DNA of 64,000 nucleotides from Ruminococcus sp. GTDB taxonomy: Bacteria > Bacillota > Clostridia > Oscillospirales > Acutalibacteraceae. The position numbers and the translations under genes were made by a program. Under the pieces are notes generated by a model. It did no database searches. It was not told the DNA's origin and was given only the letters and a program-made list of their open reading frames with translations. Location of the stretch: assembly GCA_017416065.1 (NCBI GenBank), contig JAFQDM010000018.1, positions 1-64,000 on the forward strand. Reading direction: 5' to 3'. Positions 2 through 57,778 of this stretch are shown piece after piece; the first letter of the stretch is position 1, and each line of letters opens with the position of its first letter.

Positions 2-1747
2 CGCGCCAACACAACAGGCGACGAGTGCCTATGGTATGCAACCTCTCCCTCTCAGACGGTAACCTACGCAAGCTGTCACGATAATCACACTCTCTACGAC
101 AGGCTTTCAGCCTCCGTTAAGGGCACCAACGCAGACTACGGAGTCAGATACTCTGACCTTATAGATATGAACAAGCTCTCTGCAGGTATCGTTATGACAT
201 CTCAGGGTATGCCCTTTATCCTTGCAGGAGAAGAGATGGCTCGCTCCAAGGGCGGCGAGGACAACAGCTACAGAAGCGATCTGAGCATTAATGCTATTGA
301 CTGGAATCTGCTCACGGAAAATCCCGACCTGGTTTCTTACTACAAGGGACTTATAGACATCCGCGAAGTATTTGCTCCCTTTACTGAGAGCACAAATAAA
401 TATATGGACTCCTACACCTTCTACGAGGAAACACAGGAGATACTTGACGTGGAATCCACAGCCACAGAGGACGAGTACATCACAGCTTGTGACTACGTGG
501 CGTTTACTGTGAAGAACGACGTGCAGGGTCAGTGGGACACAGCCCTTGTTATCTACAACGCATCTGCACAGAAAAAGACTGTGGAGATAAACACAGATGT
601 AACCGAGTGGACTGTTATTGCCAACGAATCAGGGGCAGGGCTCGATGCTCTTGCCACGGTCAGCGGCAACAGCTTTGAGGTTGCACCCTTTACCTGCTTT
701 GTGGCAGTTGATACGGAAAGCTTCTCTTCCTGCGGCTTTAAGTCAGAGGACGGCAAGGTCATCATCAAGCACGTAGACAAGGATACAGGGGACGTGCTTG
801 CCTCAAACGTTATCACAGGCAAGCCCGGCACAGGCTACAGCACTCAGGTCACACCCTTGAGCCTGCTGGAGTACGACTACGTAGACTTTGAGGGCGAGAC
901 CTCAGGAGTATTCTCCCGGGAGGATCAGGTTATCACCTGCAACTACGTGGCTTACAAGGCACCCTCACTCCTTGCGGCAGACGTGGACCAGAACGGCAGA
1001 GTTGCCATTGGCGATGCTACCACCATCCAGAAGTACATCGTTGGACTTGCAAGCTTTACGGACGAGATAATGACCCTTGCAGACGTGGACTACAGCGGTG
1101 CCGTGAACGTGAAGGATGCAACAATGCTCAGAAAAGACCTGGCAGGCTTTAAGGTAAGCACGGGAACACTCGTGACAAACTTCTATCAGCTGGACGAAGA
1201 GGGCAACAAGGTTGAGCTTGCTCCCTCCACCACCCAGACCCTCAGAGTGGGCGCTGAGTACAAGGCTACTCCCGTGAAGGCAACACTCCTTGACGTAAGC
1301 GAGGAGCTCTCCTCCGCCAATGCAAAGGGAATCCTGCCTGCAGGCACTACGGTGGTTGACTTTGTATATGTAGAGGCTACCACAGGCGTCAGAGTTAACG
1401 CTATCCATCTTGACCCTGCGGCAGAGTGGACTCCCAACCTTTGGGCATGGAGTGCATTGGGAAGCCTTTACTCCTCCTGGCCGGGTGCGGCTATGGAGAT
1501 GGGTGAGGACGGCTGGTACTTTGTAGATACCACCCTCCCCAGAAACGACTACTCCATCATCATCTCCAACAACGGTACTCCCCAGACTGCAGACTACACA
1601 GGCCTTGCAGGAGGAGAGATATGGGTGGTAATTGACGATTACAATATGGTAAACGGCGGCAACTTCCTCAAGATTTACGATGAGATGCCCGACGTGGAGG
1701 CTCTCAGAGCAGAGGCTCTTGCAACAGCTCCCACAGATGCCGAGTGA
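2..1747 (+). CDS. Type I pullulanase, 3' part, with dockerin and C-terminal starch-binding module (partial)
   Basis: The frame is open from base 2, so the 5' end lies outside the window. Early residues read YASCHDNHTLYDRL, the region IV of pullulanases (GH13_14) holding the third catalytic Asp. The later stretch GMPFILAGEEMARSKGG followed by NSYRSD and IDWN is also typical of alpha-1,6-debranching enzymes. Next come a beta-rich C domain, a MucBP-like segment (about 766-954, VIIKHVDKDTGDVLASN), a two-repeat dockerin (about 976-1158, DVDQNGRVAIGDATTIQKY and DVDYSGAVNVKDATMLRKD), and a terminal module with a SSWPG motif resembling CBM26 (about 1375-1690). The dockerin is internal. Expected role: extracellular debranching of starch or pullulan as amylosome cargo. 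The enzyme class is secure; naming of the accessory modules is inference from motifs. Confidence 0.9.
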   Translation, partial: RANTTGDECLWYATSPSQTVTYASCHDNHTLYDRLSASVKGTNADYGVRYSDLIDMNKLSAGIVMTSQGMPFILAGEEMARSKGGEDNSYRSDLSINAIDWNLLTENPDLVSYYKGLIDIREVFAPFTESTNKYMDSYTFYEETQEILDVESTATEDEYITACDYVAFTVKNDVQGQWDTALVIYNASAQKKTVEINTDVTEWTVIANESGAGLDALATVSGNSFEVAPFTCFVAVDTESFSSCGFKSEDGKVIIKHVDKDTGDVLASNVITGKPGTGYSTQVTPLSLLEYDYVDFEGETSGVFSREDQVITCNYVAYKAPSLLAADVDQNGRVAIGDATTIQKYIVGLASFTDEIMTLADVDYSGAVNVKDATMLRKDLAGFKVSTGTLVTNFYQLDEEGNKVELAPSTTQTLRVGAEYKATPVKATLLDVSEELSSANAKGILPAGTTVVDFVYVEATTGVRVNAIHLDPAAEWTPNLWAWSALGSLYSSWPGAAMEMGEDGWYFVDTTLPRNDYSIIISNNGTPQTADYTGLAGGEIWVVIDDYNMVNGGNFLKIYDEMPDVEALRAEALATAPTDAE

Positions 1748-17992: not shown

Positions 17993-18088
17993 ACAATCGT
18001 ATGATGTGGCGGTATATATTGCCGTCGCTTGTGTGTGCGGTTTTCTGCACAGACGGGTACAAAATATTTTTTAATGGAGGCTTTTCTG

Positions 18089-20506
18089 ATGAAAGCAAAA
18101 AGATTACTTAGCGTAGTTCTTGCGGTAACAGTAGTCCTTTCTTGCGTAATGTGCCTTGCATTTGCTCCCACTGCTTCTGCAGCAAGCGAGTACAACACAT
18201 ATGCAAAGTTCCAGGAATCTATCAAACCCGAGAACAACTACGGTCTTGCCGACACAGTAAACGAAGGTAAGATCCTCCAGGCTTGGAACTGGTCCTATGA
18301 GAACGCAATCGCTCTTATGGAGACAGTTGCAAAGCAGGGCTTCACAACAATCCAGATTTCTCCTCCCAATGAGCTCAAGATGCCTACAAAGGGTGTTGCA
18401 GTTTGTGCAGAGCCCGCAGAGGACGGCATTGCTCCCAACGGTTGGTGGATGTTCTACCAGCCTGCAGGCTTCCAGCTCAACGAGTCTGAGGACAACGCTC
18501 TTGGTACAAAGGCACAGTTCGTAAAAATGTGCGAAGAGGCTAAGAAGTACGGCGTTAAGATCCTTGTTGACGCAGTTATCAACCACATGGGTACAGATGA
18601 CGATCACATCGGACTTTATGAGAACGACTCCGTAGATCCCATGGCTCACGTTAACTCCAGAGCAGCTGAGTTCGAGCCCGAGCTCCTTGCAGCAAAGGCT
18701 TTCCACAGCCCCTGGAAGGACATGACCTACGTTGAGAACATGAATCAGGCTATGAGACTCTATGATGCAGAGGGCAAGCCCATTCCTCAGCTTGACGGCA
18801 ATGGCAACCCCATCAAGAACGCTCAGGGCTACATCCAGTACCAGACAGGCGGCAACGCTACTGAGTACGACATCGAGGAGTCCCTCACACAGCACTGCAC
18901 ATCCGGTCTTCCCGACCTTGCAACAGAGACAGAGCTGGTTCAGACCACAATCTACGATTACCTGAAGGAGCTCATCGACGCAGGTGCAGACGGCTTCCGT
19001 TTTGACGCTGCAAAGCATATCGAGACAGTTCACGACACATACTTCCCCTCTGATTTCTGGGAGAACACACTCCAGAAGCTCAGAGCAGAGAATCCTGACA
19101 AGGAGATCTTCGCATACGGTGAGATCCTCAACAAGTGCGGCGACGGCAGACCCTTCTCTGAGTACACAGAGCTTATGGACGTTACTGACTCCTCTTCCTT
19201 CTGGGGCATCAAGGATGCTGTTTGTAACAGAGGTAACGGCGGTAACCCCCTTCCCAAGTATCCCAACACTAACTTCACAAAAGAGAACGTAATCCAGTGG
19301 AATGAGTCCCACGATACATACATCGACGGCGGCACATCCTACTTCACAATCGAGCAGAGAAACAAGATCTGGGCTCTTACAGCAGCTCGTGAGGCTATCA
19401 CAGGCGTATACTTTGCTCGTCCTATCGATGAGCCCGGCAACGGCCGTGCAGAGATCGAGCCCAAGCTCTACAACGTAATGCTTGGTGAGGCTAACCTCAC
19501 ATCCTGGACACTCCCCGAGGTTGCAGCTGTTAACCAGTTCGACAACTTCTTCGGCGATGCAGAGGAGTTCACCTCCAAGCCCAGCAAGACAGCTATCATC
19601 ACTCGTATCGGCGATGCAGGCGTTGGTGCTACAGTTGTTAACCTTGAGGGTACAACAAGAGAGCTTGACGTTAAGGCAAGCAAGCTGCCCGCAGGTACAT
19701 ACACAGATGCTATCACAGGCAACACATTCGTTGCAGCTGACGGCAGACTCACAGGTTCCATCGGCGAGACAGGTATCGCAGTTCTTTACTACTCTGACGA
19801 TGTAGCTCCCGTACTTCCTGACGAGGGCACAATCACAGATCCCTGGCTGCTCGACGTTTCTACAGGCGAGTATCCCGTAGTAGAGGGCTACAACACAGTT
19901 GTATTCTCCACAAAGTGGGGCAGCGCAAGCATGTATTGCTGGAGCGACACAGACGGCGAGCTCAACGGCTGGCCCGGCACAGCTATGAAGTGGGCTCTTG
20001 AGAATGAGTACGGCGAGCAGCAGTTCGTTGCATACATTCCCGTTGAGTACAACCACTACATCATCAACAACGACGGTCAGGGCGAGCAGACCATCGACCT
20101 TGACATCAGCGAGAGCGTTGGTATGTATATGGCTGAGAAGGACGGTTCCGGTAAGTTCACAATCGGTACATGGCAGCCCAATTTCTACAACTGGGCACCT
20201 CCCACAACTCCCGGCACACAGCCCACAACTCCCGCAACTCAGCCCACCACAGCTGAGCCCACCACAGCAGAGCCTTCTACAGCTCCCACAGAGCCTGCAG
20301 CACTGCTTGGCGACGTTGACGGCAACGATTCCATCAACGTTAAGGACGCAACTGCTATCCAGAAGTTCGTAGCAGGAATGGAAGTTCCTTCCTTCAACGA
20401 GGCTGCAGCAGATGCTGACGAAAGCGGCTCCATCAACGTTAAGGACGCAACTGCTATCCAGAAGTGGGTTGCAGGTATCCTTACAGAGAGCAACATCGGC
20501 AAATAA
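18089..20506 (+). CDS. Secreted alpha-amylase (GH13) with starch-binding module and dockerin
   Basis: The 805-residue enzyme cuts internal alpha-1,4 bonds of starch. After a signal peptide (1-31, ending TASA) come the four GH13 regions: DAVINH (161-166), GFRFDAAKH with nucleophile Asp306, FAYGEI with acid Glu345, and ESHD with Asp409. A beta C-domain follows, then a module with LNGWPGTAMKW resembling CBM26, a Pro-Thr linker, and a two-repeat C-terminal dockerin (GDVDGNDSINVKDATAIQK; DADESGSINVKDATAIQKW). ATG 18089 has GGAGG upstream; the frame continues further 5' but without signal peptide or ribosome site. Expected amylosome cargo. Confidence 0.96.
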   Translation: MKAKRLLSVVLAVTVVLSCVMCLAFAPTASAASEYNTYAKFQESIKPENNYGLADTVNEGKILQAWNWSYENAIALMETVAKQGFTTIQISPPNELKMPTKGVAVCAEPAEDGIAPNGWWMFYQPAGFQLNESEDNALGTKAQFVKMCEEAKKYGVKILVDAVINHMGTDDDHIGLYENDSVDPMAHVNSRAAEFEPELLAAKAFHSPWKDMTYVENMNQAMRLYDAEGKPIPQLDGNGNPIKNAQGYIQYQTGGNATEYDIEESLTQHCTSGLPDLATETELVQTTIYDYLKELIDAGADGFRFDAAKHIETVHDTYFPSDFWENTLQKLRAENPDKEIFAYGEILNKCGDGRPFSEYTELMDVTDSSSFWGIKDAVCNRGNGGNPLPKYPNTNFTKENVIQWNESHDTYIDGGTSYFTIEQRNKIWALTAAREAITGVYFARPIDEPGNGRAEIEPKLYNVMLGEANLTSWTLPEVAAVNQFDNFFGDAEEFTSKPSKTAIITRIGDAGVGATVVNLEGTTRELDVKASKLPAGTYTDAITGNTFVAADGRLTGSIGETGIAVLYYSDDVAPVLPDEGTITDPWLLDVSTGEYPVVEGYNTVVFSTKWGSASMYCWSDTDGELNGWPGTAMKWALENEYGEQQFVAYIPVEYNHYIINNDGQGEQTIDLDISESVGMYMAEKDGSGKFTIGTWQPNFYNWAPPTTPGTQPTTPATQPTTAEPTTAEPSTAPTEPAALLGDVDGNDSINVKDATAIQKFVAGMEVPSFNEAAADADESGSINVKDATAIQKWVAGILTESNIGK

Positions 20507-41670: not shown

Positions 41671-42630
41671 ATGGCAGAAATAAAATGTATTGACGTTTCC
41701 GAATGGCAGGGAAAGGTGGACTTCAAAAAGGTGAAAGCCGCAGGCTACTCCCATGCGATTCTGCGTGCAGGGTTTGGTCGATCAAGCTCTCAGGTGGATG
41801 CAGAGTTTGAGCGTAACTACAAGAACGCTAAGGCGGCAGGAGTAAAGCTGGGCGTCTATTGGTACGCCTACGCGGTGGATAAGGCAGATGCCGTAAAAGA
41901 GGCGAAGGCGTGCCTTGAGGTAATAAAAGGTAAGGTGCTGGAGCTTCCCGTGTTCTACGATATGGAAGAAAGCTCTATGAAAAGCCTGGGCAAAACAGCC
42001 CTTACCGCCATGGCGACCGCTTTTTGTGAAGAGATCAAAAAGGGCGGATTTGCCTGCGGTGTTTACGGCAATCCCGACTGGTTTACAAACTATCTTGATT
42101 ATAAAACCCTCAGATCAAAATATCCCATCTGGCTTGCACAGTATTACAAAGAAGCTCAGCTTGAGTGCGACGTCTGGCAGTATACCTCAGAGGGTAAGGT
42201 GAACGGCATCTCAGGCAATGTAGACCTTAATATCATCTACAACGAGGAGATCATCCAAGAGGAAAAGACCGCAAAGCCGAAAGGTCCTGCTCCTAATGCA
42301 GAGCTTAAAACGGGCGATGGGGGAATTGGAGTGCTGTGCTTTAAGTACCTTGTGCAGATTGCAGATGATATGGGTCTGCTTCAGTACGGAATGACCCTTG
42401 GAAACAATAAGTATTCCAAAGGTACACAAAACGCGGTGAAGGCTCTGCAAACGCAGATGGGACTTAAATCTACGGGTACGGCAGATGAAAGCTTTGTCAA
42501 TAAGCTATACAAGCTCATAACCGAGAACTACCCTCTTGCAGGGGATGCAAACGGTGACGGCAAGGTGGATGTAAGGGATGCAACAGAGATACAGAAGCTG
42601 GTTGCAGGAATTGAGGCGGCAGATGAATAA
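41671..42630 (+). CDS. GH25 lysozyme (endolysin) with peptidoglycan-binding domain and single dockerin repeat
   Basis: The 319-residue lysozyme hydrolyses peptidoglycan. The GH25 barrel (residues 1-195) has IDVSEWQG with Asp8 and VFYDMEE with Asp97 and Glu99. Residues 210-285 resemble a peptidoglycan-binding domain (GVLCFKYLVQIADDMG...TQNAVKALQTQMGL). The C-terminus (about 287-319) is one dockerin F-hand repeat, GDANGDGKVDVRDATEIQK, where normal dockerins have two. There is no signal peptide, so export would rely on the holin encoded next. AAAGGAGGG precedes the ATG. Confidence 0.92.
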   Translation: MAEIKCIDVSEWQGKVDFKKVKAAGYSHAILRAGFGRSSSQVDAEFERNYKNAKAAGVKLGVYWYAYAVDKADAVKEAKACLEVIKGKVLELPVFYDMEESSMKSLGKTALTAMATAFCEEIKKGGFACGVYGNPDWFTNYLDYKTLRSKYPIWLAQYYKEAQLECDVWQYTSEGKVNGISGNVDLNIIYNEEIIQEEKTAKPKGPAPNAELKTGDGGIGVLCFKYLVQIADDMGLLQYGMTLGNNKYSKGTQNAVKALQTQMGLKSTGTADESFVNKLYKLITENYPLAGDANGDGKVDVRDATEIQKLVAGIEAADE

Positions 42631-43117
42631 ATTTATTTTGGCATTTGGCGAAAACTACTCAACCCTGAAGATATATGTTACTTCAGCTATTGCGGCTGCA
42701 GGAGGCTTTGTTGCAAAGGCCTTGGGGGGAATAGACCCCCTGCTTACTACCCTTGTGACTCTTATCATCCTTGACTACGTGACGGGATTTATAAGAGCCA
42801 TCTACAAAAAGGAGCTCTCAAGCTCCAAAGGCTTCAGAGGAATTATTAAGAAGGTTTTTATCCTGCTTACTGTGGGGCTTTCCGTAAGCCTGCAGAACGT
42901 GGTCCCTCAGGGAATACCCCTCAGAGAGATCACCGTGCTGTTTTTTATCTCAAACGAGGGGATATCTATCCTTGAGAACACGGCAGGAATAATCCCACTT
43001 CCCAAAAAACTGCGCTCAGTGCTTGCGCTTATAGAGGAAAAGTCGCAAGAGCTCTCAGAGAATGAGGCAGAAAACTCCGATATCGAATCATCGAAGCAGG
43101 CAGAAGAACAGGGATAA
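42623..43117 (+). CDS. Holin, toxin-secretion/phage-lysis family
   Basis: The 164-residue protein has three to four hydrophobic segments with the family motif LDYVTGFIRAIYKKELSSSKGFRGIIKK, and an acidic C-terminal tail (ENEAENSDIESSKQAEEQ). Such holins make pores that let lysins cross the membrane; the TcdE group also serves toxin release. ATG 42623 overlaps the lysozyme stop by 8 bases, so coupling is tight. An earlier in-frame ATG at 42578 lacks a ribosome site. Confidence 0.88.
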   Translation: MNKFILAFGENYSTLKIYVTSAIAAAGGFVAKALGGIDPLLTTLVTLIILDYVTGFIRAIYKKELSSSKGFRGIIKKVFILLTVGLSVSLQNVVPQGIPLREITVLFFISNEGISILENTAGIIPLPKKLRSVLALIEEKSQELSENEAENSDIESSKQAEEQG

Positions 43118-48715: not shown

Positions 48716-49864
48716 ATGGCAAACAGATTTGTCCTCAACGAAACAAGCTATCACGGCAAAGGTGCAATACAGGAGATCGCAAATGAGATCAAGGCAAGAG
48801 CCTTTAAAAAGGTTCTTGTATGTTCAGACCCCGACCTTATCAAATTCGGCGTTACAGCCAAGGTTACGGATATACTTGACGATGCTCAGATCCCATATGA
48901 GATCTTCTGTGATATTAAGCCCAATCCCACCATTGAAAACGTACAGGCAGGAGTTGAGGCTTTTAAGGCAAGCGGTGCAGATTGCATAGTTGCCATTGGC
49001 GGAGGCTCCTCAATGGATACCGCCAAGGCCGTTGGCATAATAATTGAAAATCCCGAGTTTTCCGATGTGCGCTCCTTAGAGGGAGTGGCTCCCACCAAGC
49101 GCAAGTGCACACCCATCATTGCAGTGCCCACCACAGCAGGCACCGCCGCAGAGGTCACCATCAATTACGTTATCACCGATGCACAGAACAACCGCAAGAT
49201 GGTTTGCGTAGACGTTCACGATATCCCTGTTGTGGCAGTTGTTGACCCTGATATGATGTCTACAATGCCCAAAGGCCTCACCGCCGCCACGGGTATGGAT
49301 GCGCTCACTCACGCAATTGAGGGCTACATTACCAAGGGTGCCTGGGAGATGAGCGATATGTTCCATCTTAAGGCTATTGAGATCATTGCAAAGAGTCTCA
49401 GAGGTGCTGTGGAGAATACAGACGAGGGCAGAGAGGGAATGGCTCTGGGTCAGTACATTGCAGGTATGGGCTTTTCCAACGTAGGTCTTGGAATCGTTCA
49501 CTCTATGGCACATCCTCTGGGAGCACTTTACGACACACCCCACGGAGTTGCAAATGCAATCATCCTGCCTACGGTTATGGAGTACAACGCACCAATGACG
49601 GGGGAGAAATACAGAAATATTGCTAAGGCTATGGGAGTAGAAGGTACGGAAGCTCTGACCATAGAGGAGGCAAGAGCCGCCGCGGTAGATGCAGTCAGGA
49701 AGCTCTCTGCAGACGTAGGAATCCCTGCAGACCTTAAGGATATAGTAAAGACTGAGGACATCGACTTCCTTTCTCAGTCAGCATATGACGATGCCTGCCG
49801 TCCGGGCAATCCCCGTGACACAAGTGTAGAGGAGATAAAGGAGCTTTATCTTAAGCTTATGTAA
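48716..49864 (+). CDS. fucO: Iron-containing alcohol dehydrogenase, FucO (lactaldehyde reductase) type
   Basis: The enzyme reduces an aldehyde such as lactaldehyde with NADH. The 382-residue protein has the nucleotide loop GGGSSMD (95-101) and all four iron ligands: Asp195, His199, His262 and His276, at almost the same numbers as E. coli FucO. The substrate may instead be acetaldehyde or another aldehyde. AAAGGAG precedes the ATG. It lies upstream of the scaffoldin gene by 51 bases; functional linkage is not implied. Confidence 0.9.
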   Translation: MANRFVLNETSYHGKGAIQEIANEIKARAFKKVLVCSDPDLIKFGVTAKVTDILDDAQIPYEIFCDIKPNPTIENVQAGVEAFKASGADCIVAIGGGSSMDTAKAVGIIIENPEFSDVRSLEGVAPTKRKCTPIIAVPTTAGTAAEVTINYVITDAQNNRKMVCVDVHDIPVVAVVDPDMMSTMPKGLTAATGMDALTHAIEGYITKGAWEMSDMFHLKAIEIIAKSLRGAVENTDEGREGMALGQYIAGMGFSNVGLGIVHSMAHPLGALYDTPHGVANAIILPTVMEYNAPMTGEKYRNIAKAMGVEGTEALTIEEARAAAVDAVRKLSADVGIPADLKDIVKTEDIDFLSQSAYDDACRPGNPRDTSVEEIKELYLKLM

Positions 49865-49915
49865 AGCAAATTTTAGCCTGTATTAATTATCTTAGATCCA
49901 CAAGGAGATGTTTTT

Positions 49916-51148
49916 ATGTCTTTTAAAAGAATACTTTGTGTTTTCCTGACTTCCCTTATGGTACTCTCTGCGTTAACGCTGAATACTTTTGCTGCAGAGA
50001 AGAGCACTGATGAGCAGGAAAAGGCTCACATCACATACCAGGGCGGTTCCTACGAAGCCTGTGTGGGCGACACCGTAATATACACCGTTGAGCTTTACGC
50101 TCAGGAGCTTTTTGAGAATATCCAGGCAACTCTTTATTTTGATTACGAGGGCTTGGAGTTTCGGGATGTTTCTGCCTATTATCCCTCTATGCCCAATCTG
50201 GAGGGTACCAGCTGTGTTCTGAACACAGAGTATGCTGACGGAGTTATCAAGTTCAACGCAAGCCTTATCCGAGGCATAGATTTCAGAGAAGAAAAGGTCC
50301 TGCTTAACCTGGGCTTCAAGGTTAAAGAAGCAGGAAGCTGGGACATCAGACTACAGATGGAGTTTATGACTGTTTTGGGTAATACGGGCAACTACTTCTT
50401 CAAAAACGAGCCTCAGATAACCGAGGGCATCGGCTTTGATTACAGCATTACCCCTGCAGATCTGGAGAATCCTCCCACCCCTCAGGCTCAGATCTGCGTT
50501 GACGACGTAACATACAGAGCCAACGTAGGAGATGTTCTGGTTTATACGGTCAAGCTTTCTGCTCGGGAGCTTTTTGAGAACATTCAGGGCTCTGTGTATT
50601 TTGACAGCGATGTTCTGGAGATTACGGATATCTCCGAGCTTTTCCCCGTTATGCCGAATCTTCAGGATTCCAACGCCGTGTTCAATCCCGTATATGAGGA
50701 CGGAGTTTCCAGGTTCAACGCCAGCAATATACAAGGCATAGATTTCAGTCAGGAGCAGATATTGCTCAACCTTGGCTTCTGCGTTAAAAAAGCAGGCTAC
50801 TCAAAGATAGAAACGAAGTTTGAATTTATGACCATTCTGGGCGGAGAAGACCACTATTTCTTTAAGGGTGAAGCCGTGCAGACAAAGGGTATCAATATTG
50901 CAGAGCTCCTTGCTCCGTATCACATCCCCGAAATCCTGGGAGATGCGGACGGAAACGGTAAGTTGAATGTTAAGGATGCAACCACTTTGCAAAAGTACAT
51001 TGCAAGTATAATCACTCTTACGGAAAAAGCCCTCAGTCTTGCAGACGTAAACGGTGACGGCAAGGTGAACGTTCGTGATGCCACAACCATTCAGAAGGTC
51101 CTTGTAGGACTCATTCCTGCAGATAAAGTGGGGCAGATAGTAGGCTGA
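49916..51148 (+). CDS. Putative scaffoldin: two cohesin-like modules and C-terminal dockerin
   Basis: The 410-residue protein has a signal peptide (1-27, ending NTFAAE). Two tandem modules follow of about 140 residues (nt about 50020-50450 and 50485-50920). Both show the cohesin pattern GDTVIYTVELYAQELFENIQATLYFDY / GDVLVYTVKLSARELFENIQGSVYFDS, then FNAS..GIDF..E..LLNLGF.VK. A two-repeat dockerin ends it (GDADGNGKLNVKDATTLQK; DVNGDGKVNVRDATTIQK). Its neighbours are starch-binding dockerin proteins. Role inferred: adaptor joining dockerin cargo to another scaffold. Cohesin assignment is from pattern only. Confidence 0.78.
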   Translation: MSFKRILCVFLTSLMVLSALTLNTFAAEKSTDEQEKAHITYQGGSYEACVGDTVIYTVELYAQELFENIQATLYFDYEGLEFRDVSAYYPSMPNLEGTSCVLNTEYADGVIKFNASLIRGIDFREEKVLLNLGFKVKEAGSWDIRLQMEFMTVLGNTGNYFFKNEPQITEGIGFDYSITPADLENPPTPQAQICVDDVTYRANVGDVLVYTVKLSARELFENIQGSVYFDSDVLEITDISELFPVMPNLQDSNAVFNPVYEDGVSRFNASNIQGIDFSQEQILLNLGFCVKKAGYSKIETKFEFMTILGGEDHYFFKGEAVQTKGINIAELLAPYHIPEILGDADGNGKLNVKDATTLQKYIASIITLTEKALSLADVNGDGKVNVRDATTIQKVLVGLIPADKVGQIVG

Positions 51149-51208
51149 GTTTAATTGTTCTTGTCAATTGAATTCTTTTTACTGAAATATTGCAAAGGAG
51201 ATGTTTTT

Positions 51209-53194
51209 ATGAACACAAAGAAGATATTATGTATGCTGATTGCGTTTTTGATGATGCTTTCAGCTTTTTCGGCAAGTGCCTTTGCAGGTGTTTCCCCGAA
51301 TGCTTCCGAGGCTTCTTCTACTGCGGACGAAAGCTTTCCTTCTACCTTTGATGAAGATATTGCAAGCTCAGACGAGGAGCCTCGGCGCCTTTTGGGAGAT
51401 GCAGACTCAAACGATGCTGTGAACGTAAAGGATGCAACCCTTATCCGCAAATTCATTGCAGACCTGAGCACTCTTGATGAGATCTCTCAGCTTTATGCAG
51501 ACGTAGACAGAAATGAAGCTGTAAACATCAAGGATGCCACGGTTATACAGAAATACGTGGCAGGTATAAGCGTTAAAGAAGCCGTAGGTTACCCCTTTGA
51601 TGCTGACCCTGAAACCTACCGTTACTACTTCTATATGCCCTATAATTGGCTCAATGAATCTACAGCCACCACAGGCAACACAGCAGGAATCTACTGGTGG
51701 GATGGCACAAACAGCCATACCTCTTGGCCGGGAAGTCCTGCAAAGAAGAGCGACATTGAGGGTGTATACTACTACGATGTTCCCAAGGATGTTACCACTA
51801 TTATATGGAATAACTTTGTGGATGGCGGTGCAGACAGCGAACAGCCTGAATATTATAAAGCAAGGCAGACCCGAAACATTCCCACAGAGTACTATGATCC
51901 TATGGAGAGCGAGTTTTATCCCGAAGGCACTAAAAACTTTGACGGTATGATTTATGTGATAGATTCCTCGCTTAATCCTGTCAGCGACTATGGTCAGAAG
52001 TACACCGCATCAGGCGAGTGGTTCTATTATTACGGCAATGGCGAGTACGGCACCGCACCTGTAAAAGGAGAAAGCAAAGTCCTCACAGGGGATACGTTTG
52101 ACTACTCCTCACTTCTCCTTGACAATAATTCCTCCGACACATACAGATATTTCTTCTATATGCCCGAGGATTGGCTCAATGAGTCAACTGCCACCACAGG
52201 CAACACAGCAGGAATATATTGGTGGGAGGGCACAGGTTATCACGAATCTTGGCCGGGTGTCCCTGCTATGAAGGCAGATGTAGAGGGAGTGTATTATTAC
52301 GATGTGCCGATAGATGTGACGACCATTATGTGGGATAATTACTTCGACAGCGGTGCAGATCCATCAGCTCCATACTATAACGATTCTCATATGACTAGAA
52401 ATATAGGAACAGAGTTCTATTACCCGGGTGAGAGTGAGTTTTATCCCGAAGGGCTTGAGAATTATGACGGAATGATCTATGTAATTGATCCCACAATAAT
52501 TCCGATTAATGATTATACCAGACCTGTAGGATGCGGTGAGTGGTTCTATTACTACGGAGGTGGCGAGTACGGCACCGCACCTGTAAAAGGAGAAAGCAAA
52601 GTCCTCACAGGGGATACATTCGACTATAACTCACTTCTCCTTGACAATAATCCCCCCGACACATATAGATACTACTTCTATATGCCTCCCGAGTGGCTCA
52701 ACGATTCAACTGCCACCACAGGCAACACAGCAGGAATCTACTGGTGGGAGGGCACAAACGCCCAGGAGAGATACCCCGGACTTAAAGCTCAGAAAACTGA
52801 TGTGGAGGGAATTTTCTATTATGATGTTCCCACAGATGTGCCGAGCATTATCTGGAACAATTTCTTTGATGGGGGAGATGACATTACTGAGCCCTGTTAT
52901 ACTGACGCTATCCCCACGAGAGAGATAAAAACAGACGGATACGCCCCGGGACAGAGCGAATACTATCCCGAAGGGCTTGAGAGCTTTGACGAGATGATTT
53001 ATGTAACGAATTTTATAGATTATGATTACAATGACTATAGCGGAAAGCTTCAGCTCGGCGGCGAGTGGTTCTATTACTACGGAGGTGGCGAGTACGGCAC
53101 CGCACCCGTAAGGGGAGAGAGCGAGATCCTCACAGACTATGCTCTGAACATAGGTTATTTTATTTCTGACAACGAAATCGGTCCTTATACCTAA
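51209..53194 (+). CDS. Secreted dockerin protein with three starch-binding-like modules
   Basis: The 661-residue protein has a signal peptide (1-27), an acidic linker, an N-terminal two-repeat dockerin (GDADSNDAVNVKDATLIRK; DVDRNEAVNIKDATVIQK), and three 174-residue repeats starting at nt 51617, 52142 and 52664. Each repeat carries YRYYFYMP..WLN, GIYWW.G, WPG or YPG, YYYDVP.DV..I.W.N and GEWFYYYG.GEYGTAPV. The aromatic-rich WPG pattern resembles CBM26-type starch-binding modules. No catalytic motif is seen. ATG 51209 has AAAGGAGATG upstream, as in the scaffoldin gene. Likely anchors the complex to starch. Confidence 0.82.
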   Translation: MNTKKILCMLIAFLMMLSAFSASAFAGVSPNASEASSTADESFPSTFDEDIASSDEEPRRLLGDADSNDAVNVKDATLIRKFIADLSTLDEISQLYADVDRNEAVNIKDATVIQKYVAGISVKEAVGYPFDADPETYRYYFYMPYNWLNESTATTGNTAGIYWWDGTNSHTSWPGSPAKKSDIEGVYYYDVPKDVTTIIWNNFVDGGADSEQPEYYKARQTRNIPTEYYDPMESEFYPEGTKNFDGMIYVIDSSLNPVSDYGQKYTASGEWFYYYGNGEYGTAPVKGESKVLTGDTFDYSSLLLDNNSSDTYRYFFYMPEDWLNESTATTGNTAGIYWWEGTGYHESWPGVPAMKADVEGVYYYDVPIDVTTIMWDNYFDSGADPSAPYYNDSHMTRNIGTEFYYPGESEFYPEGLENYDGMIYVIDPTIIPINDYTRPVGCGEWFYYYGGGEYGTAPVKGESKVLTGDTFDYNSLLLDNNPPDTYRYYFYMPPEWLNDSTATTGNTAGIYWWEGTNAQERYPGLKAQKTDVEGIFYYDVPTDVPSIIWNNFFDGGDDITEPCYTDAIPTREIKTDGYAPGQSEYYPEGLESFDEMIYVTNFIDYDYNDYSGKLQLGGEWFYYYGGGEYGTAPVRGESEILTDYALNIGYFISDNEIGPYT

Positions 53195-53289: not shown

Positions 53290-53318
53290 TTGACAATTTG
53301 TGTGCAAAAATATATAAT
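53290..53318 (+). promoter_or_regulatory. alaS T-box promoter (full consensus)
   Basis: TTGACA (53290-53295), 17 bases, TATAAT (53313-53318). Confidence 0.85.
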
Positions 53319-53324
53319 AATTAA

Positions 53325-53575
53325 AGATATGAAAAAGGCAATGACGGGACGAGATACTTTTCACCCTTTCTTCAGAGAGAGCACCCATTTGGCTGCAAGG
53401 TGCTTGCAAGGTTTGGTATCAGCCACCCCTGAGCCCTGTGCGAGGAGCACAGCGTATGGTCTGCGTTAAAGATTTCGAGTGGGCGGATAAGCTTTCTTAT
53501 TCGTCAATCAGGGTGGTACCGCAGGAATTTACTCTTGTCCCTTTTGGGGCAGGAGTTTTATTTTTTATAAAACAG
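53325..53575 (+). promoter_or_regulatory. T-box leader controlling alaS
   Basis: The leader carries the T-box sequence GGGTGGTACCGCAGG (53511-53525), whose bulge pairs with uncharged tRNA ends. An upstream Stem I region follows AGAGAG (53375-53382), and a terminator (ACTCTTGTCCC with GGGGCAGGAGT, 53531-53556, then TTTTATTTTTT) closes it. Uncharged tRNA-Ala should favour the antiterminator and switch alaS on. I did not fix the specifier codon; alanine is inferred from the downstream gene. Confidence 0.93.
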
Positions 53576-56382: not shown

Positions 56383-56411
56383 TTGACACCGAAAGTCGCA
56401 GTTGCTATACT
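56383..56411 (+). promoter_or_regulatory. Promoter of the two-module dockerin gene
   Basis: TTGACA (56383-56388), 17 bases, TATACT (56406-56411). It lies directly behind the alaS terminator. Confidence 0.7.
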
Positions 56412-56458
56412 TAAATTATGGGAATCGAAGTGGAATTTTTAATAAGGAGTTGTTTTTT

Positions 56459-57778
56459 ATGGCAAAAAAATTACTGTCTGCAATTCTAACGGTTCTGCTT
56501 GTTGTGTCTGCTTTTGGCGCAACGTCCGTCTTTGCAAATGATGAAACGGAGATTTTAACTCCAAAGACGGAGCAAAATACCCTTCCTCAGGTAGCCGAGG
56601 GCTGTAATCGCTATTTTTTCTATCTCCCAAAATCCTGGCAGAATGAATACACACAGACCGCAGGTATCTATTGGTTCGAAGGCACAGGGGCTCACGATAG
56701 CTTTCCCGGAGTGGAGGCAATCAAGGCTGATGCCGAGGGCGTTTATTATTACGATGTTCCAAAGGATGTAGAAGGCGTAATCTGGAATAATTTCTTCGAC
56801 GGCGGTGAGGACAGAACAACCGAAGAATACTATGCAACTAAGGCTACTGATGGTGCATATATGTACCCCTATGAAAAGGGTGAACACGAGCTGTACCCTG
56901 ACGGAATCTGCGACTATAACAATATGATTTTTATTGTTGACTTTAGCCGTTGCGGTTGTTTGCACTGGGATTACCGTACAAACGGCGGTGAATGGTATTA
57001 TTACTACGGCAACGGCGAATACGGCACAACCCCCGAACGCGGAGAGGTAGTATATACAGACCGTTCCATAGGAGAGTATTGTCCTCATCAGCAACCCGAA
57101 ACTCCGGATAATGACAAATTCGGTCTTCCTGAGGTGGCAGAGGGTTGCAACCGATATTTCTTCCATTTGCCCGATTCCTGGCTCAATGAGTACTCAGACA
57201 CCGCAGGAATATATTGGTGGGAGGGTACAGGTGCACAGGTTGCCTGGCCGGGGCTTAAGGCACACAAGGCAGATGCCGAAAACGTGTATTACTACGATGT
57301 GCCTGCAGACGTAAGTCAGATAATATGGAATAATTACATACATTTCAGTCCCGATCAGGTGGTTGGTCCTGAGTACGGTGCAACCTGCAAAACTGAATCT
57401 GTCAGTCTTGATGGGGGAGCGTACAACGGTATGATTTTTGTTATTACCGTACAGTATGACGTCGTTTCTAATCTGGGCTCTATTTATGCTGGCGAGTGGA
57501 GAGAGTACTACGGCAACGGAGAGTTTGAAATGGGCTACCCCTACGTACCTCCGGAGGATCTGTATCCGATAGGTGACGTAAACGGTGACAAGGCAGTGAA
57601 CATCAAGGATGCAACTCATATTCAGAAATTCATTTCAGGGCTTGATGTACCAAAGGTGAATAATGTGCTGGGCGATGTGGACAACTCCGCAGATATTACC
57701 GTGAAGGATGCCACCGCCATTCAGAAGTTTATTGCAGGAATATATACGGGCTATCCCATAGGGCAGTACCTATCATAA
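56459..57778 (+). CDS. Secreted dockerin protein with two starch-binding-like modules
   Basis: The 439-residue protein has a signal peptide (1-24, ending SVFAND), two modules homologous to those of the protein at 51209 (about nt 56610-57050 and 57150-57540; NRYFFYLPKSWQNEY, GIYWWEGTGAQVAWPGLKA, YYYDVPADVSQIIWNN), and a C-terminal two-repeat dockerin (GDVNGDKAVNIKDATHIQK; GDVDNSADITVKDATAIQK). Dockerin position is the reverse of that protein, where it is N-terminal. No catalytic site is seen. AAGGAG precedes ATG 56459. Confidence 0.82.
   Translation: MAKKLLSAILTVLLVVSAFGATSVFANDETEILTPKTEQNTLPQVAEGCNRYFFYLPKSWQNEYTQTAGIYWFEGTGAHDSFPGVEAIKADAEGVYYYDVPKDVEGVIWNNFFDGGEDRTTEEYYATKATDGAYMYPYEKGEHELYPDGICDYNNMIFIVDFSRCGCLHWDYRTNGGEWYYYYGNGEYGTTPERGEVVYTDRSIGEYCPHQQPETPDNDKFGLPEVAEGCNRYFFHLPDSWLNEYSDTAGIYWWEGTGAQVAWPGLKAHKADAENVYYYDVPADVSQIIWNNYIHFSPDQVVGPEYGATCKTESVSLDGGAYNGMIFVITVQYDVVSNLGSIYAGEWREYYGNGEFEMGYPYVPPEDLYPIGDVNGDKAVNIKDATHIQKFISGLDVPKVNNVLGDVDNSADITVKDATAIQKFIAGIYTGYPIGQYLS

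Follow-up and report, generated by a model that had tools for sequence, protein, structure and literature searches.

We analyzed a 64,000-nucleotide stretch of Ruminococcus sp. DNA (assembly GCA_017416065.1, contig JAFQDM010000018.1, positions 1 to 64,000; hereafter the window), in which two neighboring forward-strand genes, gene A and gene B, encode a candidate non-catalytic adaptor scaffoldin and a candidate starch-binding protein. Gene A (49916-51148, + strand, ATG start, 410 amino acids) encodes, in order, a hydrophobic N-terminus, two cohesins of ~145 residues, a short linker and a C-terminal dockerin. By eye, the protein starts with a basic part followed by the hydrophobic stretch MSFKRILCVFLTSLMVLSALTLNTFAA, and no anchor of its own is seen. 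Cohesin 1 (residues 37-181, 50024..50458, +) is recognized by a family hidden Markov model (HMM) and has its best Pfam stretch at residues 45-141; cohesin 2 (residues 191-335, 50486..50920, +) is 50% identical to it. On the whole protein, Pfam Cohesin (PF00963) scores 35.6 bits over two stretches (cut-off 24.1) and Dockerin_1 scores 41.7 bits at residues 341-394, and in a scan of the whole genome the same dockerin (50936..51100, +) reaches 45.7 bits with PF00404. At E<=1, the Pfam matches are cohesin, dockerin and EF-hand families and an insignificant Glyco_transf_8 (E 0.14); there is no catalytic or starch-binding domain match and no significant Pfam domain besides the two cohesins and the dockerin. 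An earlier note on this DNA had read the gene at 49916 as two tandem cohesin-like modules with their own dockerin, and Pfam and the family HMM bear this layout out.

The cohesin family was followed with an HMM built from eight copies of the same genome, the two of gene A included, and we found that this model detects the same modules in many relatives within the genus. Fifty-two copies score at least 60 bits, and 31 of them were aligned. Pfam Cohesin matches 24 of the 31 at E<=0.001, and when the 31-row profile was compared with the PDB, 12 of the 13 distinct sequences found at E<=0.1 were named cohesin, scaffoldin or R. bromii Amy4. The best match is 7urp, named 'Ribonucleases G and E', a name that we could not interpret. 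A plain sequence search with gene A returned dockerins and calmodulins for the most part; its single cohesin hit was insignificant (E 0.53). The motifs PNL, FNAS, MT and YF, which are common to much of the cohesin family, are kept in both gene A copies. That the modules are cohesins, as had been proposed, is well supported by the Pfam matches across the family and by the names in the profile comparison.

Gene B (51209..53194, +, 661 amino acids) lies directly downstream. Its listed open reading frame (ORF) begins with a TTG at 51155, and the ATG at 51209 stands after a ribosome site. The protein has an N-terminal dockerin (51392..51559, +; 28.3 bits in the Pfam search of window proteins, 32.8 bits in the genome scan with PF00404) and then three starch-binding-like modules of ~170 residues: module 1 (51608..52126, +), module 2 (52133..52648, +; 72% identical to module 1) and module 3 (52655..53173, +; 58% identical to module 1). 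This is the layout that had been predicted, and it is recovered with Pfam and a module HMM. Module 3 (residues 478-648) is 67% identical to a module of a scaffoldin of the same genome in which gene B's module stands in front of a cohesin (SBD-Coh), and many relatives have SBD-Coh scaffoldins that likewise begin with this module, including that of an R. bromii-like genome (L182 3850-5487).

The claim that these modules are starch-binding held in part: they are related to CBM26 by profile comparison, but the Pfam cut-off for CBM26 is not reached. Using a profile of 30 aligned copies (each at least 90 bits and at least 120 residues), hhalign against CBM26 copies gave 95.5% probability and E 1.4e-8 (for one comparison) over 90 columns. 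The comparison set held four copies from genome G105, those of the window amylase and pullulanase, and six from stretch L047 of the window's own genome that were picked by pattern. As controls, 20 of 20 column shuffles gave at most 1.1%, and comparisons with the cohesin profile gave at most 0.4%. A single-sequence search aligned gene B's dockerin and module 1 with the dockerin and CBM26 of R. bromii Amy16 at 45.4 bits. Pfam CBM26 (PF16738) does not match gene B at E<=1, so we rejected gene B as a member of that family at its cut-off; Pfam CBM26 weakly matches 6 of the 30 module family members (best 8.4e-5), and another protein of the window with two such modules (56465-57775) scores 24.5 bits, below the cut-off of 28.1. 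Against the PDB, the 30-row profile found nothing at E<=1. We also compared the module with a putative Sas20d1-like protein (L181 5426-6538, beside alaS in G099), which was identified by position and published description only; the probability was 0.2%, and this control is weak for kinship with Sas20 because the CBM26 profile also reached only 0.4% there. These comparisons support a CBM26-related module with ~60 extra residues, which would bind starch. Given its place in front of many SBD-Coh scaffoldins and the lack of a PDB match to its profile at E<=1, the module is an obvious subject for starch-binding study.

Genes A and B are preceded by the same ribosome site. The 17-mer AAGGAGATGTTTTTATG, which runs from the Shine-Dalgarno sequence to the start codon, is found at 49902..49918 (+) before gene A and at 51195..51211 (+) before gene B; the two sites had been called near-identical and are in fact identical at all 17 bases. 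Allowing up to 2 mismatches, the window holds no other copy (0.03 expected by chance), and no further exact copy occurs in the other stretches of the genome that were scanned. The gap between the genes is 60 bases and contains no terminator-like site, a spacing consistent with co-expression of the pair. In the window the gene order is peptidase U32, Fe-alcohol dehydrogenase, gene A, gene B and alaS. The alcohol dehydrogenase (48716-49864) exceeds the NCBIfam cut-off for lactaldehyde reductase and ends 51 bases before gene A. Between gene B and alaS there is a promoter-like site with 12 of 12 matches (53290-53318) and a T-box leader (53332-53545; 81.7 bits, below the gathering score of 93, and a scan at gathering level listed nothing). 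A single operon of gene B and alaS was rejected on account of these two elements.

We searched 161 genomes of the genus with the double-cohesin region of gene A and 59 genomes with gene B. The double-cohesin region matches 39 of the 161 genomes at E<=1e-8; at that level near-full-region matches are found only in G105 (40%) and G130 (39%), at another locus, and partial matches are found in G049 (29%) and G022 (26%). With full-length gene A as the query, two G056 proteins align at 28-30% over both cohesins and the dockerin. The G105 relative, which is the closest to gene A, carries four CBM26 modules, three cohesins and a dockerin (CBM26x4-Cohx3-Doc), and the G130 relative carries three cohesins and a dockerin. 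By eye, both genes lie near a glutamine-synthetase-like gene, away from alaS, with a glycyl-tRNA-synthetase-like gene in between in G105. A search of named genomes with gene A gave three loci, all in ruminant-gut assemblies, that were dockerin matches only, with no orthologue among them. In a cohesin tree, the two cohesins of gene A are sisters (100/96), apart from the cohesins of the tailed scaffoldins of the same genome, although the deep forks are weak; their neighbors in the tree, cohesins from dockerin proteins of G116 and G113, are joined to them with weaker support (89/88). Because its cohesins are sisters, gene A looks like the product of a tandem duplication within the lineage.

Proteins of the genus repeatedly join such cohesin modules to a dockerin. 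One from G113 (L129 4401-5984) has the order cohesin, dockerin, cohesin, another bivalent adaptor layout, with a Pfam cohesin at residues 36-164 (61.5 bits) and the second cohesin after the dockerin. G056 has proteins with five cohesins (L054 2714-5701) and at least three cohesins (L055 3132-4706), both with a C-terminal dockerin and both on short contigs; their dockerins are of another type (NIFDAT, not NVKDAT).

The genome itself is 1.86 Mb in 36 contigs, ~85% complete, and appears from sequence to belong to R. bromii's genus but to lie outside the R. bromii-like species cluster. Of the 161 genomes, 3 have a match at E<=1e-18 to 65 residues from the dockerin of R. bromii Amy16 (PDB 9qf9), with 95% identity in G099, 86% in G032 and 81% in G034; our genome is not among the three. 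The family profile gives 11 cohesin matches in our genome (five on contig C23, two on C36, the two of gene A, and one each on C10 and C22), to which Pfam adds one on C14 at 27.5 bits. The C23 cluster (L047 10390-16220) encodes five cohesin proteins, of which the three with strong cohesins have sorting-like tails that by eye consist of a TG-containing motif, a hydrophobic stretch and RKK. The tailed SBD-Coh scaffoldin lies at L047 14712-16220. Several relatives, including the R. bromii-like G099 (L182), have comparable cohesin clusters. Sortase has three matches over the cut-off in the genome, and contig C36 (L048) encodes a second protein with two cohesins and a dockerin (Cohesin 54.8 bits).

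Dockerin_1 gives 65 matches at E<=1 in the genome, from which 62 dockerin ORFs were collected, some of them cut by contig ends. At E<=1e-5, Pfam finds CBM26 in 14 of the 62 and alpha-amylase in 4, and no cellulase family is among the 25 of 28 families listed for them. The genome thus combines GH13 and CBM26 proteins that bear dockerins with cohesin scaffoldins, tailed ones included, and sortase, within R. bromii's genus, and gene A places cohesins and a dockerin in one protein with no catalytic match. The amylosome setting proposed earlier is supported by these counts and by the near-identical Amy16 dockerin in the genus.

Taken together, these data suggest that gene A probably serves an amylosome as a secreted adaptor scaffoldin that is bivalent and non-catalytic, and that gene B is a triple starch binder borne by a dockerin. 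The two cohesins of gene A would each hold one dockerin protein, such as an amylase, a pullulanase or a starch binder like gene B, and the dockerin of gene A would attach the adaptor with its load to a different scaffoldin by way of a cohesin there; the SBD-Coh protein encoded in this genome, which we infer to be anchored to the wall, is one candidate. Docking on an anchored cohesin, or on that of another adaptor, would provide more sites near the wall and would mix enzymes with multivalent binders, and gene B would bring several granule contacts to whichever cohesin it occupies.

Several observations weigh against this reading of the pair. Scored alone, cohesin 2 of gene A reaches only 20.3 bits with Pfam, under the cut-off, and a whole-genome PF00963 scan found 8 cohesins elsewhere with neither gene A module among them; the over-cut-off match therefore depends on both copies together. 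No cohesin was listed by Pfam at E<=0.01 in the G105 and G130 relatives, so their cohesins rest on likeness to copies of our genome (111-152 bits). Between 49042 and the start of gene A there is no promoter-like site with 9 of 12 matches. Because the genome is ~85% complete, other scaffoldins may be missing. LRR_5 is found in 14 of the 62 dockerin ORFs, a count equal to that of CBM26, and these 14 are LRR proteins of the BspA type, so that cargo need not be starch enzymes. Finally, the dockerin of gene A is not distinct from cargo dockerins, and a hierarchy of cargo, adaptor and anchor is not visible in the sequence.

The low single-module Pfam scores could mean that the gene A modules have the cohesin fold but have lost the binding of dockerins and are instead used in adhesion or in direct binding of glycans, and the genus does contain tandem cohesin-like proteins in which no dockerin was detected (L184, L056). 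We consider this highly unlikely: gene A keeps a dockerin of its own in a genome with ~60 others, the family motifs are conserved in both copies, and modules of this kind are joined to dockerins time and again in the genus. The LRR count raises another alternative, in which the complex mainly serves purposes other than starch, gene A gathers LRR, peptidase and other dockerin proteins, and the adjacency of gene B is due to chance. In favor of this, dockerins also occur in this genome on single peptidases, esterases and a beta-lactamase-fold protein, and the dockerins are nearly uniform. However, the nearest relative of gene A has the same cohesin and dockerin set together with four CBM26 modules in one chain, and the 17-base ribosome site is unique to genes A and B in the window; an adaptor for a complex not chiefly concerned with starch is thus improbable.

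The near-uniformity of the dockerins bears on what gene A binds. We aligned 60 dockerins of the genome and compared the positions that usually serve recognition in dockerins; left out were a degenerate dockerin, a second stretch that overlapped another, and the half dockerin of a GH25 protein. The pattern [VI]-[KR]-D-A-T...Q-K is present in both repeats of 35 of the 60, in the first repeat of 46 and in the second repeat of 43. The dockerin of gene A fits this common pattern in both repeats, that of gene B deviates in the first repeat (R for Q), and that of the window pullulanase shows it in neither repeat. Because gene A shares these residues with most cargo dockerins, its partner cannot be assigned by sequence and adaptors might chain. 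In cellulosomes a class of adaptor dockerins distinct from those of cargo is common, although it is not required. In a dockerin tree that included the adaptors of two relatives, the four adaptor dockerins fall in separate places (4 changes, as many as with shuffled data), and a single clade of adaptor dockerins is neither supported nor rejected (p 0.099, few columns). The sequence thus gives no sign of a separate adaptor class, and cargo and adaptor may be bound by the same cohesins. The near-uniform residues argue against gene A as a dedicated carrier of the enzymes of the window.

One explanation in which gene A never sits on an anchored scaffoldin is that it is a cell-free linker, cross-linking dockerin proteins in solution or on the granule. 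This would fit with the lack of a visible anchor, with the pairing of the gene A cohesins apart from those of the tailed scaffoldins, weak as the deep forks of that tree are, and with R. bromii, where Sca3 and Sca4 have been proposed as formers of cell-free amylosomes (PMC5814915). However, a dockerin borne by a scaffoldin is the usual hook onto another cohesin, and since gene A has the recognition residues found in most dockerins of this genome, it should also be accepted by anchored cohesins that accept cargo. We therefore regard a purely cell-free role as rather unlikely and favor the adaptor that docks on other scaffoldins.

For that adaptor, near-uniform dockerins raise the question of whether there is one recognition class for the whole amylosome. 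We tentatively raise the possibility, which we would not call probable, of a self-propagating amylosome of one class, in which an adaptor sits in the cohesin of another adaptor so that branching trees of undefined size would form, capped by enzymes and triple starch binders. Starch targeting would then have moved between one fused chain (as in CBM26x4-Cohx3-Doc of a relative) and two separate proteins (those of genes A and B). If this is true, the assembly rule differs from the strict hierarchy of cargo, adaptor and anchor in cellulosomes with separate cohesin-dockerin types.

To place the locus among relatives, we compared 32 alaS loci in the genus (29 + 3), reading upstream for at most 1.5 kb, or for less where a contig ended. 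A peptidase U32 gene lies within this distance in 26 of the 32, so close to alaS that there is no room for the gene A and gene B pair; the other 6 showed no U32 match and are uninformative on the pair. In none of the 32 loci did the stretch from U32 to alaS yield a gene resembling gene A, gene B or the alcohol dehydrogenase; the only matches were dockerin matches in G028, which are due to a dockerin gene on the opposite strand. Downstream of alaS, dockerin proteins with gene B's module are present in our genome, G028 and G020, and for R. bromii the gene of a Sas20d1-like surface protein has been reported next to that of an alanine-tRNA ligase (PMC9112005). The alaS spot seems to collect genes of this kind.

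Other parts of the window encode possible cargo. A dockerin amylase with CBM26 lies at 18029..20506 (+; Pfam Alpha-amylase 53.1, CBM26 30.5, Dockerin 28.7 bits). A dockerin pullulanase with MucBP and CBM26 is cut by the window edge, so that only its C-terminal part is present (2..1747, +; Pfam); this part matches NCBIfam pulA_typeI at 88 bits, a partial match below the whole-protein cut-off. Downstream of alaS is the two-module dockerin protein of gene B's module family (56459..57778, +; module HMM 165 + 99 bits), whose ORF spans 56402-57778 and whose likely start at 56459 follows from a ribosome site. The earlier note had named all three proteins, and all were found, the pullulanase as this C-terminal part; of the seven dockerins that it counted in the window, six exceed the Pfam cut-off, but the seventh is only half a dockerin (42538-42606). 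This half dockerin, which consists of the first repeat only, belongs to a GH25 lysozyme-like protein that is followed by a holin-family gene (41671-43117), possibly a phage-type lysis pair with a dockerin remnant.

Adaptors of this kind are familiar from other complexes. In the cellulosome of Ruminococcus flavefaciens, ScaA likewise has a short cohesin array and a C-terminal dockerin that hooks onto an anchoring scaffoldin, although its cohesin and dockerin types are different. For R. bromii, the parts of the papers that we consulted give five scaffoldins, of which only one is noted to have a cohesin and a dockerin, the amylase Amy4 (PMC5814915). Amy4 (Sca1) resembles gene A in that it combines cohesin(s) and a dockerin in one secreted chain in the same genus, and in the rumen strain YE282 it has two cohesins and a dockerin, as gene A does (PMC5814915). 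In contrast to gene A, which has no catalytic or starch-binding match, Amy4 is an amylase with GH13 and CBM26. Sca2 and Sca5 are amylosome cohesin scaffoldins, and our genome likewise has the tailed cohesin proteins of L047; unlike gene A, they have a C-terminal sortase signal and no dockerin is described for them in those parts of the papers (PMC5814915, PMC9112005).

For gene B, a close likeness in layout is R. bromii Sas20, which has a dockerin, several starch-binding domains and no enzyme, and whose domain Sas20d1 is a CBM26-like sandwich by structure (PMC9112005). The dockerin is C-terminal in Sas20, whereas it is N-terminal in gene B (PMC9112005). Gene B and its module profile have no match at E<=1 to the Sas20 PDB entries, although sequence tests are insensitive here and the two may still share a fold. 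Gene B as a homologue of Sas20 therefore has no sequence support in the PDB or profile comparisons, both weak tests.

'Ruminococcus_E' rumen assemblies with cohesins, dockerins and GH13 were listed earlier (PMC9763041), and among the open-licence papers listed in our searches we found no adaptor scaffoldin described in an amylosome. A purely structural adaptor with two cohesins and a dockerin would show that larger complexes, of the sort that cellulosome producers assemble, also occur in relatives of a keystone starch degrader. Among published proteins, cSca1 and cSca2 of Limousia pullorum ET540 resemble gene A in being non-catalytic, with tandem cohesins and a C-terminal dockerin; their predicted partners are cargo, a wall anchor and the dockerins that they carry themselves (PMC12997984). 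They differ from gene A in having five and three cohesins and in belonging to a mucin-degrading system of another genus (PMC12997984). The same paper reports an F1 of 0.87 on R. bromii for a workflow that co-folds cohesins with dockerins (PMC12997984). The Limousia mucinolysomes are the nearest published model for how gene A would work.

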